Made by a program: the position numbers and the translations under genes. From positions 1-37,920 of IMG/VR virus record IMGVR_UViG_3300046170_000096: DNA of 37,920 nt; one strand, 5' to 3'. This DNA is from a virus. Under the pieces are notes generated by a model that saw only the letters and a list, made by a program, of their open reading frames with translations, made no database searches and was not told where the DNA came from. Below, one piece after another: positions 4,711 to 32,720 of this stretch (positions are counted from its first letter, which is position 1; every line of letters starts with the position of its first letter).

Positions 4711-5727
4711 ATGGCAGACACGCCTCAAGAGGAATCTGCTGTTTCAAAACCAACCTATACAACAGATGAAACAGCAAAGGCTTTCGCTACCCTTTTAAAT
4801 AACGAGACTGCAAGGAACGAAGAGCCTACAACGGAAGTATCAGAAAGTAAGGAAAGTGATCTTCAACAAGACACCACCGAACTTACGCCAGACGATATAG
4901 ACGTCAACGACATAGTAGATAACGAAGAAACTATTTCAAACAGCGAAGAGACACTTTACGAAATTACTGTCAACGGACAGAAACAACAAGTTACCCTCGA
5001 TGAGCTTATGAAAGGTTACTCTAGGGAATCAGACTATACCAAGAAAACAATGGAGCTAGGAGACAAGCGAAGAGAAATAGAAACTTTGCAAGGTGACTTA
5101 GCGAAAGAGTTAGAAGCAGTCAAAAATTCTAAAAGTCAATATGCACAACAACTAGATGATCTAACACAACAGTTAGGCACTAAGGAACAAAATATAGACT
5201 GGGAAACTTTATATCAAGATGACCCTGCGGAGTATGTTCGCAAAAAAGCAGAGTCAGATAGACGTAAAGAAATGTTGCAACAAGCACAAGTTGAAAAGCA
5301 ACGTCTTCAAGAAGAACAACGAGCAGAGCAAGAGAAAGTATATAACGAGTACATTGCAAAAGAACGTCAAATTTTAGAAGAAAAATTACCAATCTATAAG
5401 AATAAAGAAAAGAGAGAAGCATTTGTTAAAAACTTAACAAATTTTGCTAAAGAGAATGGTTATACTGACCAAGAAATTGCAATGATGGTAGATCATCGTG
5501 CAGTTATGTTGTTAGCTAACGCTTACAAATACGATCAGTTAAAGAAAACTAAACTCTCTGGTAAGAAAGTAAATACTCCTCCTAGAATTGTTCGACCTAA
5601 TGCGTCTAATGTGACGGAAGCATCTAACGATAAACAACGTATTGATCGCAGAATGACTAAACTGAAAAAATCTGGATCACTTCGAGATGCACAATCGGTG
5701 TTGAAAGAAATGATGCAAAACGAATAG
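4711..5727 (+). CDS. capsid scaffolding protein
   Basis: This 338-residue protein lies immediately upstream of the major capsid gene, the standard place for an internal scaffold. The first 80 residues are acidic and low-complexity (many Glu, Thr, Asp). About residues 110-250 form a long charged coiled coil (RREIETLQGDLAKELEAVKN, KRLQEEQRAEQEKVYNEY). The C-terminus is basic (RMTKLKKSGSLRDAQSVLKE), as expected of a scaffold's coat-binding helix. A clear Shine-Dalgarno, AAGGAGTTACA, precedes ATG. No protease motif is visible, so it is a scaffold rather than a prohead protease. The family is inferred from architecture and position. Confidence 0.85.
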   Translation: MADTPQEESAVSKPTYTTDETAKAFATLLNNETARNEEPTTEVSESKESDLQQDTTELTPDDIDVNDIVDNEETISNSEETLYEITVNGQKQQVTLDELMKGYSRESDYTKKTMELGDKRREIETLQGDLAKELEAVKNSKSQYAQQLDDLTQQLGTKEQNIDWETLYQDDPAEYVRKKAESDRRKEMLQQAQVEKQRLQEEQRAEQEKVYNEYIAKERQILEEKLPIYKNKEKREAFVKNLTNFAKENGYTDQEIAMMVDHRAVMLLANAYKYDQLKKTKLSGKKVNTPPRIVRPNASNVTEASNDKQRIDRRMTKLKKSGSLRDAQSVLKEMMQNE

Positions 5728-5736
5728 GAGTTAAAA

Positions 5737-6711
5737 ATGGCTGTACCTACAAATACAGTAGAAACTTTTGATCGTGTTGGTATAAGAGAAGACTTGGCTG
5801 ATGTTATTTACAATATAGCACCAACTGAAACACCTTTCATATCAAATGCGGCATCAGGTTCGGCGGCTCAAACTTTACATGAGTGGCAAACAGACGGATT
5901 AGCAAATGCGGCGGCAAATGCTCAAAAAGAAGGCGATGACTACGCACTAGGTAGCAGAGCGGCAACAGTAAGACTAAATAACTACACACAAATCTCAGCT
6001 AAAACTGTAGGTGTGTCTGGCTCTGACCAAGCAGTAACAAATGCAGGTCGAGGAGACGAACTTGCATATCAATTAGCAAAACTTGGTAAAGAGTTAAAAA
6101 GAGATATGGAGTTTGCAAACATCGGTGTAGAAAATGCAAAAGCGGCAGGTTCATCTGGCACAGCTAGAGAATCAGCATCAGTAGGTACTTGGTACGGAGG
6201 TAACATTGCAGGTACTTCTTCAAGTGCAGGAAACTTTTCTACTAATGGTTCTCCAAGTGCAAGCCCTGCAGGTACGGGAGCTACTGCAATCGCAGGTGGT
6301 ACTAACAGAACTTTTACAGAAGCATTGTTAAAAGCAGGTTTAAAAAAATGTTACGAGCTAGGTGGAAACCCAGACGTAGTATTAATGTCTGCTTCACATA
6401 AACAATTAGCATCTGCATTTTCTGGTGTAGCAACACTTTACAAAAACGCTGATGACAAAACTGTTATCGGTGCAGTAGATGTGTATGTGTCTGACTTTGG
6501 CGAAGTAAGTTTCGTACCAGACAGACATCAACAAGCTAACAGAGTTGATATTTTGGAAATGGATAAGTGGGAAGTATCTTACCTAAGACCATTCCAAACA
6601 AAAGACTTAGCATCAAGCGGAGACAACGATAAGAAACTACTCTTAACAGAGTGGACTCTTACTGCAAGATCGCCAAATGCTAACTACGGAATATTTAACT
6701 TAACTGCATAA
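5737..6711 (+). CDS. major capsid protein, SU10-like HK97 fold
   Basis: This 324-residue protein is the likely coat subunit. The N-terminus with IAPTETPFISNAASGSA and ALGSRAATVRLNNYTQISAK matches the family typified by the phage SU10 major capsid protein (formerly DUF5309), an HK97-fold group common in marine podoviruses. A Gly/Ser/Ala-rich insertion at about residues 155-195 could be a surface loop. Later segments such as LMSASHKQLASAFSG, VYVSDFGEVSFVPDR and WEVSYLRPFQTKDLA are typical of the family's C-terminal half. It has a good Shine-Dalgarno (AATAGGAGTTAAAA) and is followed at once by a strong terminator, fitting the most highly expressed late gene. Confidence 0.93.
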   Translation: MAVPTNTVETFDRVGIREDLADVIYNIAPTETPFISNAASGSAAQTLHEWQTDGLANAAANAQKEGDDYALGSRAATVRLNNYTQISAKTVGVSGSDQAVTNAGRGDELAYQLAKLGKELKRDMEFANIGVENAKAAGSSGTARESASVGTWYGGNIAGTSSSAGNFSTNGSPSASPAGTGATAIAGGTNRTFTEALLKAGLKKCYELGGNPDVVLMSASHKQLASAFSGVATLYKNADDKTVIGAVDVYVSDFGEVSFVPDRHQQANRVDILEMDKWEVSYLRPFQTKDLASSGDNDKKLLLTEWTLTARSPNANYGIFNLTA

Positions 6712-25837: not shown

Positions 25838-25913
25838 TGGTGGGTGTAACAGGATTTGAACCTGTGACCTTTTCCGTGTCGAGGAAACATTCTACCAACT
25901 GAACTATACACCC
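25838..25913 (-). tRNA. tRNA-Val(GAC)-like gene, probable attachment-site tRNA
   Basis: A complete 76-nt cloverleaf including encoded CCA folds on the minus strand. Acceptor GGGTGTA pairs with TACACCC. The D arm is GTTC/GAAT with loop AGTTGGTA. The anticodon stem is TTTCC/GGAAA and the T arm ACAGG/CCTGT with loop TTCAAAT. Discriminator is A73. The 7-nt anticodon loop is TCGACAC, so the anticodon is GAC (25878-25880), predicting valine. Position 33 is C instead of the near-universal U, which is odd. It lies 222 bp from the integrase gene, so it is probably the site of site-specific integration, carried whole by the phage. Confidence 0.9.
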
Positions 25914-25944
25914 TTAACTTATTATAGACCAACCTCACAACTTT

Positions 25945-25962
25945 TTGTACAGCTATTGTACA
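25945..25962. repeat. 18-bp repeat, copy 1 (TGTACA-N5-TGTACA)
   Basis: TTGTACAGCTATTGTACA here is identical to 26104-26121. Each copy carries two TGTACA palindromes separated by five bases. The two copies bracket the phased repeats between tRNA and integrase. Probable protein-binding sites for excisionase, a host bending factor or an autoregulator. Confidence 0.85.
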
Positions 25963-25967
25963 CAACG

Positions 25968-26037
25968 TTTGGTTAACTTTGGTTAACTTTGGTAAAAAAT
26001 TGTAAGGTTTGGTCAACTTTTGCATCGTCTGGTCACT
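25968..26037 (+). repeat. five phased 10-bp repeats (TTTGGTYAAC), probable integrase arm sites
   Basis: Related decamers start at 25968 (TTTGGTTAAC), 25978 (TTTGGTTAAC), 25988 (TTTGGTAAAA), 26008 (TTTGGTCAAC) and 26028 (TCTGGTCACT). The start-to-start spacing is exactly 10, 10, 20 and 20 bp, one or two helical turns, so all copies face the same side of DNA. Lying between a tRNA and a tyrosine integrase, they are best read as arm-type sites of attP. That function is inference. Confidence 0.75.
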
Positions 26038-26103
26038 TATAACTACATCGACACGGCTTGTCCATACCTTTTTTTTTGTTAGTTTTTAGCCACAAAATAA
26101 ATG

Positions 26104-26121
26104 TTGTACAGCTATTGTACA
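26104..26121. repeat. 18-bp repeat, copy 2
   Basis: Identical to 25945-25962 and 159 bp from it. It lies 15 bp beyond the integrase stop codon. A hairpin CTGCC-TATTAC-GGCAG (26129-26144) overlaps that stop but lacks a U-tract, so it is not a canonical terminator. Confidence 0.85.
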
Positions 26122-26135
26122 TCAACACCTGCCTA

Positions 26136-27242
26136 TTACGGCAGTAGATTGATCTTCTTGCGTGTTTCTTCTGGTACTGTTGAACCATAAACACTAATCA
26201 TATCTCTCGTTTTCCAACCTCCCAAATCCATTAGCTCACTATCATTAGCATTTGCATAACTAATTAAGAAAGTTGCGTAAGTATGTCTAACAGCGTGTCT
26301 TTTTTTCATTTGATCTACATTAGCCATATCAAGCATTTCTCTCCATGAATTAGTTAAACCATCTGGTTTATTTTTTTTGTGTTGTAGGTTGTTCCAAGGA
26401 AATAATTTATCGTTTCTATTATTTATTTTTTCTAGCCAAGCTCTCAATGTAGGATGTATTTCTATTACTCTTCCCTCATCTTGTTTGCTTTGCCATAAAA
26501 ATATTTGATTTTTTTCTAAGTCTATTTCTGGTCTATTATTGAAAAAGTTTTTGCCAGACCATGACACATTTAAGGCTTCCTGTAACCTAGCTCCTGTGTA
26601 CAGCATAAATACAAGAAGTAACTTAGTATAAAAAAAAGCATTACTTTCTAAACATCTTTTTATTTCTTCTAATGTAAACGTATATTTAGGTCTATTCTTA
26701 CCAGATAGTGTCCAAAATCTTTTAATACGCATATACTCACACCATTTATTATCATGTGCATAGTGCATTATCTTTGATACCTGTGTGATAAAGTTACGAT
26801 TAACTGTTGCGTGCTTAGACGATATATCTATTTGTTTATCTCGAGGCAAAGAAGTATATTTTAAATTCGTATATTCTTTAATGTTATTGTAACACTCAAT
26901 AGCTTTTTGACCAATTAACTTATTAGTTATTTTATTTAAATGAAAAGAGCCAAGATATTGAACTGTACGATGTAAGTTTCTTTCATCTTGTTTTGATATA
27001 GACTCATAAGGGTCATTTAATACTTCGTTTGTAGCGTCTTTATACGTTTTAACTTCATAACCGCTATTCTGCCTTTTGTAGTCTTCAATCCATTTTTCTT
27101 TAAAATTATCCCAAAACCTTTTTGTATATGTCTTGGAAGCAAGAACATTAGTCTTTGTCCAATTTATTTCTATTGTAATGGTAGCAACTTTAAAAGTGCC
27201 TCTTATATAGTAGTATTTTCCTCGTGGCTTTTCCGTAAGCAT
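26136..27242 (-). CDS. int: tyrosine-family integrase
   Basis: This 368-residue protein integrates and excises the phage at an attachment site. The C-terminal catalytic domain shows R219 (LYTGARLQEAL), K253 (WQSKQDEG), H316-x-x-R319 (RHAVRHTYATFLI), W343 in the second His/Trp position (DLGGWKTRDM) and nucleophile Y352 (ISVYGST), the complete tyrosine-recombinase set. Residues about 75-185 look like a core-binding domain. The N-terminal 60 residues are beta-rich and basic (KYYYIRGTFKVATITIEINW), like arm-binding domains, consistent with the phased repeats downstream. It overlaps the excisionase-like gene by 40 bp. Confidence 0.93.
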   Translation of the reverse strand: MLTEKPRGKYYYIRGTFKVATITIEINWTKTNVLASKTYTKRFWDNFKEKWIEDYKRQNSGYEVKTYKDATNEVLNDPYESISKQDERNLHRTVQYLGSFHLNKITNKLIGQKAIECYNNIKEYTNLKYTSLPRDKQIDISSKHATVNRNFITQVSKIMHYAHDNKWCEYMRIKRFWTLSGKNRPKYTFTLEEIKRCLESNAFFYTKLLLVFMLYTGARLQEALNVSWSGKNFFNNRPEIDLEKNQIFLWQSKQDEGRVIEIHPTLRAWLEKINNRNDKLFPWNNLQHKKNKPDGLTNSWREMLDMANVDQMKKRHAVRHTYATFLISYANANDSELMDLGGWKTRDMISVYGSTVPEETRKKINLLP

Positions 27243-27415
27243 AGTTTCATTACCTTTCCTAAATCTTCTCGTGTGAAGATTTGTTTATTTCTAATAAAAC
27301 GATGCAAGGACTCTTCGTTTGGATTTTTCAAACGCATTTCGCCCAACCATCTTTTACATGATCTTTTTGACATTTTCAACTTTATTGCTAAATCTTCTTC
27401 CGTGTAAAACTCCAT
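27203..27415 (-). CDS. excisionase-like helix-turn-helix protein
   Basis: This 70-residue protein has a winged-helix-type HTH near its start (FYTEEDLAIKLKMSKRSCKR-W, residues 3-23), then a basic KNQIFTREDLGKVM segment. Small MerR/AlpA-like proteins directly upstream of an integrase are usually excisionases or directionality factors that bend attP/attR. Its 3' end overlaps the integrase start by 40 bp, so the two are co-translated. Confidence 0.75.
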   Translation of the reverse strand: MEFYTEEDLAIKLKMSKRSCKRWLGEMRLKNPNEESLHRFIRNKQIFTREDLGKVMKLCLRKSHEENTTI

Positions 27416-28159: not shown

Positions 28160-28524
28160 GTTTGATACCTACTCATTTTCATTTCATGTCGCTTATTTAC
28201 TTCGTCTGTTTGTTCTAAATCATCTAGCTTTTGTTTAGTGATGTAACGAACTTGTGAAATTAAAAACTTCTTGTGTATGTCTTGTTTAGTTGTTGTATGT
28301 TCAATAAATTCTTTTTGATTTGCTATTAGCTCTTTTGCTGTCGTTGTATTATGTCCATTGCTTTTCAATTCTTCAAAGATTTTACTTTTTAACGTAGCTT
28401 CTGTGTCTTTTAATGAATCGAAAGCTGTCTTGTTTTCAGCCCAATCTTCTCCTAGCTTTAATGTTTCATTCATCATAGCAACAGGGTCAAATCTATTTCT
28501 TCTTTTAAAATATTCATCACTCAT
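28156..28524 (-). CDS. helical early protein of unknown function
   Basis: This 122-residue, mostly helical, charged protein contains FDSLKDTEATLKSKIFEELK, AKELIANQKEFIEHTTTKQD and FLISQVRYITKQKLDDLEQT. The pattern resembles small coiled-coil proteins encoded next to phage recombination genes, but nothing specific is recognised. It overlaps the HNH gene and the next gene by 4 bp each (ATGA type). Confidence 0.7.
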   Translation of the reverse strand: MSDEYFKRRNRFDPVAMMNETLKLGEDWAENKTAFDSLKDTEATLKSKIFEELKSNGHNTTTAKELIANQKEFIEHTTTKQDIHKKFLISQVRYITKQKLDDLEQTDEVNKRHEMKMSRYQT

Positions 28525-28799
28525 AAATATTCACTCTCCAATTTATCTGCAATATCTCTAAGGTTGATGACTCTGGCTTTAATGTTGTATTGTTTGTCAC
28601 TATGACACCTCGAATGACAGCTTCGGCAGAGACAAATGAGATTTTCAATGTAATCTTTGAACTTACTCCCACCAGACTGACGATTTTTCAAGTGATGTAC
28701 GTCAGCACCCCAATCGCCACACATCGCACATTGTTCCGTTTGTGCTAGTGTTAATTCATCCCACCAAAATTGTCTGTATATGTCTATATGTTTTTTCAT
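28521..28799 (-). CDS. HNH endonuclease
   Basis: This 92-residue protein has the HNH zinc-supported nuclease core: C24-x2-C27 (QCAMCGDWG), then D33-V-H35-H36 (ADVHHLKN), N53 (IENLICLC) and C58-x2-C61-H62. It should make metal-dependent cuts in DNA. Here it sits in the leftward recombination operon rather than beside terminase, so a recombination or host-DNA role is likelier than a cos-cleavage partner. A 7-bp GC hairpin lies 12 nt upstream of its start codon. Confidence 0.88.
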   Translation of the reverse strand: MKKHIDIYRQFWWDELTLAQTEQCAMCGDWGADVHHLKNRQSGGSKFKDYIENLICLCRSCHSRCHSDKQYNIKARVINLRDIADKLESEYL

Positions 28800-31912: not shown

Positions 31913-32720
31913 AATCTTCAAAATGGGTGTCCATGTTGACAAATTTATAGCCGATACTGTGCATTTATCAGATGATGAGATAGGCAAATATTTTCGTTTT
32001 CTTTGTTATGCTTGGAAGTTACAGGCGAAATTACCTAGCGACGTAAAAAGAATTAATCAAATTGCAAAGAACCCAAACATTAAAAAAACACAGTATTTAC
32101 TTGATACTTACTTTGATAAAACAGAGCAAGGGTACACCAATACAGCTCAATGTCACGAATGGAATCATGTTCAAAACGTATCTGAAAAAAATTCTAAAAA
32201 CGCAAATTTGAGATGGGATAACAAAAAAGTTATGCCAACGGATATGCCTAAAAATGCCAGTATAGAGTATAGAGTAAAGAGTATAGAGTATAATAATATA
32301 ATAGATAAGTGGAATAAGATTATTCCTACTTCCCATATTAAAGTTTTTAACGAACCAAGAAAAAGATTGTTTAAATCTAGGTTTAAATCTTTCTTCAATG
32401 AGAGCTACGAGGAATGGGAACAGTTTTTACAACGCATTTCCAAAATACCTTTTTTATGGGGAAACAACGATAGAGGTTGGAAAGCAGATTTTAATTGGGT
32501 GTTAAATGAAATTAACTATGCAAAAATCATAGAAGGAAACTACGAAAAAGATCAAAAGGAAGTCACACAAATAACGAAACAAACAAATGAAGAGATTGCT
32601 GCAAAATGGATAAAAGTTTGCAACAATCCAAGTGCATTTATGCTTTCTCAAGCAGAGAAAAAACTTTCAAGAAATACGAGATTTGTATCAACGAAAATTG
32701 TTAACTCACGAACAAATTAA
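31905..32720 (+). CDS. replication-initiator-like protein (DUF1376/YdaU-like)
   Basis: This 271-residue protein starts at GTG. It opens with KMGVHVDKFIADTVHLSDDE and IGKYFRFLCYAWKLQAKLPS, the winged-helix region of the DUF1376/YdaU family, commonly the replication-initiation protein of lambdoid and other temperate phages. A variable linker (about residues 105-135) contains DNA iterons. The C-terminal part (RLFKSRFKSFFNESYEEWEQ, WGNNDRGWKADFNWVLNEIN) resembles the common phage replication-protein C-terminal module. No helicase or primase gene accompanies it, so it would recruit host enzymes. Confidence 0.8.
   Translation: MSKIFKMGVHVDKFIADTVHLSDDEIGKYFRFLCYAWKLQAKLPSDVKRINQIAKNPNIKKTQYLLDTYFDKTEQGYTNTAQCHEWNHVQNVSEKNSKNANLRWDNKKVMPTDMPKNASIEYRVKSIEYNNIIDKWNKIIPTSHIKVFNEPRKRLFKSRFKSFFNESYEEWEQFLQRISKIPFLWGNNDRGWKADFNWVLNEINYAKIIEGNYEKDQKEVTQITKQTNEEIAAKWIKVCNNPSAFMLSQAEKKLSRNTRFVSTKIVNSRTN
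32259..32293 (+). repeat. five tandem 7-bp iterons inside the initiator gene
   Basis: AGTATAG, AGTATAG, AGTAAAG, AGTATAG and AGTATAA follow without gaps from 32259 to 32293, then an AT-only stretch TAATATAATA. They encode a variable linker. Iterons and an AT-rich region inside the initiator gene are the layout of the lambda origin in gene O. Candidate replication origin. Confidence 0.65.

Follow-up and report, generated by a model that had tools for sequence, protein, structure and literature searches.

What kind of attachment site is built from a row of 10-bp units held between two identical 18-bp repeats, and which protein would read which element? This question is raised by a short region of a 37.9-kb IMG/VR virus record (37,920 bases; this whole stretch of DNA is the window referred to below), in which the gene order runs from a 70-aa gene overlapping the start of int, through int and the repeats, to an intact tRNA-Val(GAC). 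Our analyses suggest, with a probability of roughly 0.78, that the region is the attP of a temperate marine podovirus that would integrate into its host's only tRNA-Val(GAC) gene, disrupt it and supply its own copy, a strategy known as tRNA-dependent lysogeny. At the sequence level, this is supported by paired arm-like repeats, a seven-unit track, a core that matches a single bacterial order, an adjoining intact tRNA gene and the conservation of the arrangement. An earlier note on this DNA had already read the region as attP, and its interpretation is partly supported, but it had overlooked the core as well as the intact tRNA-Val next to it and what this tRNA implies.

The portal protein of the phage matches Pfam SU10_portal, the terminase is closest to those of HTVC010P-type pelagiphages (about 50% identity), and portal and capsid are closest to those of HTVC106P, Sinorhizobium phage phiM5 and environmental contigs. 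Searching IMG/VR with the integrase gave relatives at 98-99% identity and three contigs at 79-81%, and the relatives compared here represent two phage clades (99% and 80%). The order of tRNA, repeat, array, core, repeat and int is kept in 6/6 aligned contigs, with zero gaps between the repeats. For more remote relatives, alignment searches with the integrase or the winged-helix protein returned the same contigs only, a core-pattern search yielded new loci that were chance matches, many of them in one conserved stretch without arm repeats, and a relaxed arm-pattern search yielded single copies. Elsewhere in the window, a 2-kb stretch close to the right end has six copies of TTTACACTCC (35377, 35415, 35832, 36338 and 36513 on the plus strand, 37345 on the minus strand). 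Most of them lie where short open reading frames end or in the gaps between these, and the element may be a promoter or operator of the phage. The heptamer AGTATAG is repeated about five times in tandem at 32259-32292, and a small HNH endonuclease-like gene lies in the early operon (28521-28799).

Probable arm sites, decamer track and the proteins that may read them

The two 18-bp repeats occupy positions 25945-25962 and 26104-26121 of the plus strand, and the earlier description of them as exact bracketing copies was confirmed. Each consists of two TTGTACA heptamers 11 bp apart (at 25945 and 25956 on the left, at 26104 and 26115 on the right) and has dyad symmetry (TGTACA-N5-TGTACA), and the spacing of 159 bp between the copies is unchanged in relatives whose integrase is about 80% identical. 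Counted over both strands of the 37,920 bases, TTGTACA has four occurrences in total, each of them within these repeats, and with up to three mismatches allowed, the whole contig contains two copies of the 18-bp sequence, a number reached in 0/100 shuffles. The left repeat is identical at 18/18 positions in all relatives and the right one at 17/18 in the 80% relatives, where the single variable base lies between the two heptamers. When IMG/VR was scanned for TTGTACAGCNNTTGTACA, paired copies 159 bp apart were found only in this phage family, and the other matches were single copies without a matching integrase or tRNA-Val. Judged by sequence, the 18-bp repeats and not the decamers fit best as putative integrase arm sites, because they are paired, flank the core without a change of orientation, are unique and are nearly invariant, and their exact spacing around a core favours an intasome.

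Between the left repeat and the core, seven contiguous 10-bp units fill positions 25968-26037 (plus strand), and we propose that they form an excisionase (RDF) track. In the window, they read TTTGGTTAAC TTTGGTTAAC TTTGGTAAAA AATTGTAAGG TTTGGTCAAC TTTTGCATCG TCTGGTCACT, with a G at position 5 in every unit. The five TTTGGTYAAC-like units of the earlier note are all present, exact at 25968, 25978 and 26008, with two mismatches at 25988 (TTTGGTAAAA) and three at 26028 (TCTGGTCACT); their spacing of 10, 10, 20 and 20 bp was also correct, but each 20-bp gap is filled by a degenerate unit (AATTGTAAGG at 25998 and TTTTGCATCG at 26018), and the array therefore has seven units and not five. Its period-10 score of 124 compares with 58.5 ± 5.6 in 3,000 dinucleotide shuffles, none of which reach 124, and the array is the strongest period-10 region of the contig. 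A lone decamer with two mismatches is common (116 matches in the contig vs 118 expected), so the improbable part is the regular array and not the single decamers.

In the 80% clade, the array reads TTTTGCAAGA AAATGTAAAC TTATGTAAAA AAATGTAAGG TTTGGTCAAC TTTTGCATCG TCTAGTAACC. Units 1-3 are identical to the window at 18-19 of 30 positions and units 4-7 at 35-36 of 40; the first three are TTTGGTTAAC-like in one clade and AAATGTAAAC-like in the other, with the 10-bp register, the unit number and the total length exact, and the G at position 5 is found in 14/14 units across the two clades compared. Despite the altered units 1-3, the period-10 score is still 109-111 (contigs L010, L011 and L014; 58-61 in shuffles), which argues that the 10-bp register is conserved whereas many letters of these units are not. 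What an excisionase track cannot do without may be read from the 80% relatives, which serve as a natural experiment and point to the register of 10 bp instead of the individual letters. The earlier note had counted a loss of repeat spacing in relatives among the refutations of its reading, and the spacing is indeed conserved there; its view that such regularity is unusual did not hold, as the RDF sites described in the literature are also direct repeats spaced by one turn of the helix (PMC7498355). Direct repeats of this kind, on a single side of the attP core, are present in both clades, and by analogy the one-sided, contiguous, degenerate and partly turned-over decamers would fit an excisionase (RDF) track.

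The tyrosine integrase (368 aa, 26136-27242, minus strand) was recognized by PF00589 (E=2.3e-11) and as a PHROG integrase, and R219, H316, R319 and Y352, assigned by eye from conserved motifs, are its candidate catalytic residues. Its N-terminal approximately 58 residues are predicted with fair confidence to fold as beta-beta-beta-alpha (pLDDT about 77-87 over residues 1-50), which is the fold type of arm-binding domains; together with the PF00589 match, this supports the earlier reading of an attP region served by a tyrosine integrase. The identity of the domain was judged by topology; the structure model is poor beyond residue 58, which makes a fold search with it meaningless, and Foldseek with the integrase model gave zero significant matches. 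The 70-aa protein (27203-27415, minus strand) is a predicted winged-helix protein (pLDDT 85) whose gene stays beside int in relatives. Foldseek with its model gave weak matches to the DNA-binding domains of RacA, MerR-type proteins and BldC (E 0.2 or worse, below significance), and searches of Pfam, NCBIfam, PHROGs and PDB sequences gave no significant match, which places it outside every named RDF family. It is the probable excisionase of the phage and may work like an RDF.

The predicted core, the phage tRNA and the probable host

The predicted attP core ACTACATCGACACGGC lies at 26042-26057 (plus strand) and is identical at 14-16 of 16 positions in relatives. With the tRNA-Val(GAC) of the candidate host (ACTGCCTCGACACGGCAG), it shares 14/16 positions, including an exact common core of 10 bp, TCGACACGGC (26048-26057), and within it lies the predicted 7-bp overlap TCGACAC (26048-26054), which is the anticodon loop. 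The best match among 265 other 141-bp segments of the contig was 13/16, and the exact 10-bp match to the host tRNA would by itself occur in about 1% of segments of the same size (20/1864). Neither half of the host tRNA is rebuilt beyond the core in attP (18/45 and 20/40 matches, core included), and integration there would therefore break the gene. Between the core and the right arm pair, a T9 tract (26069-26077, plus strand) may bend the DNA; an IHF consensus with at most one mismatch was not found between the arms, and a scan of the attP region for terminators or sigma-70 promoters found none.

The phage tRNA-Val(GAC), at 25838-25913 on the minus strand, is intact with its CCA encoded, and its anticodon loop is TCGACAC with a C at position 33 (ARAGORN). 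It is the sole tRNA in the contig according to ARAGORN and is present in every relative scanned, and its best-scoring match among the collected tRNA-Val genes falls in the candidate host order. A TATAAT box at 25921-25926 (minus strand), 7 bp before the tRNA 5' end and invariant in six aligned contigs, is the probable -10 element of the tRNA promoter; it was seen by eye, and a full promoter was absent in the sigma-70 scan. Across 25921-25951, the -35 region of this promoter would run into the left arm repeat, and integrase binding might thus affect tRNA expression. The phage tRNA and the attP core also have TCGACACGG in common, in the anticodon arm (25874-25882) and at 26048-26056, in inverted orientation; recombination between the two would invert about 0.17 kb, and all relatives keep one orientation. 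Compared with the host tRNA, the phage tRNA carries two compensated base-pair changes in the anticodon stem, and these may keep the integrase off the phage's own tRNA, whose loop equals the core overlap in inverted orientation. Other stems of the phage tRNA are likewise AT-shifted, which makes self-protection only one possible reading of these changes. The wider idea that the decamer track is read by phase more than by sequence, and that the stem changes may spare the phage tRNA from the integrase, is a tentative one that we hold at low odds.

U33 is nearly universal in tRNA anticodon loops. We scanned genomes with a tRNA-Val pattern containing YGACACGG and took the candidate hosts from among the matches listed, where low-GC marine Alphaproteobacteria single-cell genomes have a tRNA-Val(GAC) with the same unusual C33 loop. 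The loop TCGACAC with C33 occurs in 76/162 genomes of one order, with one copy each, and in a class-wide sample, 2/385 genomes have this loop, both belonging to this order. One such genome gave 31 tRNA matches; of the 30 that could be typed, Val(GAC) and Val(TAC) account for one each. Apart from the 76 genomes of this order (that of G001), a C33 tRNA-Val was seen in two Corynebacterium, one Prochlorococcus, one Verrucomicrobiae and one Acidimicrobiales (loci L069, L115, L076, L041 and L116). SAR11 proper is less likely as host, as four sequences that we take to be SAR11 16S probes have 3 to 9 mismatches to the 16S of one candidate genome. The host probably belongs to one order of small marine Alphaproteobacteria, HIMB59/AEGEAN-169, based on these mismatches, on the naming of the single-cell genomes (AG-891 and AG-916 series) and on size and GC in comparison with published values (PMC10734472). 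The attP gives a sharp host prediction from 10-16 bp.

In the mechanism that we propose, the N-terminal domain of the integrase would bind the TTGTACA pairs, and the enzyme would cut where the 7-bp TCGACAC overlap begins and ends. Along the decamers, the 70-aa winged-helix protein would bind head to tail with about one monomer per turn, bend the left arm and drive excision. Insertion into the anticodon loop of the single host tRNA-Val(GAC) gene would disrupt that gene, and the phage tRNA-Val(GAC) would keep the lysogen alive. The predicted attL consists of the 5' half of the host tRNA-Val(GAC) and TCGACACGGC joined to TTGTCCATACC, and the predicted attR of ATAACTACA and TCGACACGGC joined to AGGGGTC. 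A search for matches to the integrase in 162 genomes of the candidate order, run without a positive control, and in the genome contig collection found none, and the attL and attR junction patterns had no true match in IMG/VR, where the one match to the attR pattern (L147) is an unrelated GC-rich contig.

Other readings of the repeats and the tRNA

The earlier note had assigned the elements the other way round, with the decamers as integrase arm sites, which would leave the 18-bp repeats to another protein such as the excisionase. Arm sites are indeed short repeats, some spaced by about one turn, and each 18-bp repeat could bind a dimer at its dyad; the decamers, however, lie on only one side of the core and are degenerate and turning over between the clades (18/30). 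The 18-bp repeats, by contrast, occur to either side of it and hardly change, and the phages of PMC10865867 have a core flanked by pairs of arm sites. We therefore judge the decamers less likely as main arm sites and this assignment as a whole improbable. Given their dyad symmetry, the 18-bp repeats could instead serve a phage repressor as operators for the control of int or of the tRNA promoter, whose -35 region the left repeat would cover. That is quite improbable given that the contig, early region included, has zero further copies, that the right copy lies past the int stop codon and not at a promoter, and that exact spacing around a core suits an intasome better. Least credible is an origin of the decamer array by chance or neutral tandem duplication without any binding role: a recent duplication could explain the two perfect neighbouring copies, and units 1-3 are unlike between the clades, but the 80% relatives retain a period-10 score far above shuffles with other unit sequences, and no unit of either clade lacks the G at position 5.

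A different objection concerns the tRNA, which might serve lytic translation and be unrelated to integration, with attB located elsewhere. Many lytic phages carry tRNAs, and zero integration junctions were found. Yet this tRNA is the only one of the contig and adjoins attP, its isotype and its rare C33 loop are shared with the core and with the one matching order, and HTVC011P, which is reported to integrate at tRNA-Leu, has the same layout. Moreover, across 11 large open reading frames of the phage, no Val codon is used less often than GTC (17/286), although the tRNA may also read GTT (122). We consider a purely lytic role unlikely, and the region is in our view best described as an attP whose phage tRNA would replace the disrupted host gene.

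Comparison with known attachment sites

In attP intasomes of the lambda and L5 type, two arms, each with its arm sites, enclose the core, and RDF sites lie on one side beside it. The present site resembles them in having a core flanked by arms with arm sites and one-sided putative RDF sites next to the core, and differs in that an IHF consensus was not found, that the arm-site pairs are exactly equal and that attB would be an anticodon loop. For the track, the closest parallels are Apl of phage 186, for which attP has five direct repeats at 10-11 bp spacing, one helix turn apart, that are bound head-to-tail and cooperatively with weak sequence demand (PMC7498355), and RdfS, of which each monomer takes up 10 bp (PMC11963761). 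The spacing of direct repeats by one turn and a loose sequence need are common to Apl, Xis, Cox, RdfS and our track (PMC7498355; PMC11963761), whereas seven strictly 10-bp units and a 70-aa candidate RDF without detectable similarity to a known RDF family set the present phage apart.

The HTVC019P-group III pelagiphages HTVC011P and HTVC025P and the phage uv-Fonsiphage-EPL integrate at tRNA-Leu(TAG), and the tRNA-Leu of the Fonsibacter phage is said to replace the lost function (PMC6811365). In HTVC011P (L247), the tRNA-Leu(TAG) spans 5592-5676; 12 bp of its anticodon region, GTCTTAGGAACT (5622-5633), recur 164 bp downstream at 5786-5797, with TGTTGCA at 5699, 5711 and 5730 between the tRNA and the second copy. 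The shared features are a marine or freshwater podovirus, a phage tRNA beside attP and a separate copy of the anticodon region downstream. The integrases, however, are not detectably related (BLASTP E=0.43), HTVC011P has no strong period-10 array in its attP, and our phage differs from that group in its SU10-type portal and other structural genes and in its tRNA. The same layout with unrelated integrases suggests convergence, and that marine podoviruses reached this layout at different tRNA genes, in streamlined bacteria with one copy of such tRNAs.

The strategy as such was defined in actinobacteriophages, in which cores of 8-17 bp (short cores of about 10 bp) do not rebuild the tRNA and the phage carries the cognate tRNA, which was shown by genetics to be required for viable lysogens; the authors asked about its reach beyond Actinobacteria (PMC10865867). 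Like Fionnbharth, LeBron and Gaia (PMC10865867), the present phage has a tyrosine integrase, a core in a host tRNA that is left unrebuilt, a cognate phage tRNA and paired arm-type sites flanking the core. In contrast to these phages, it would use other hosts and a core in tRNA-Val(GAC), it is known from sequence alone, and it has a regular contiguous 10-bp track between arm and core. In conclusion, the locus is real and biologically coherent, and it is a further example of a strategy known in a few other viruses; the parts worth following are the 10-bp register, which stays exact while the sequence turns over, and the host group, which is probably new.
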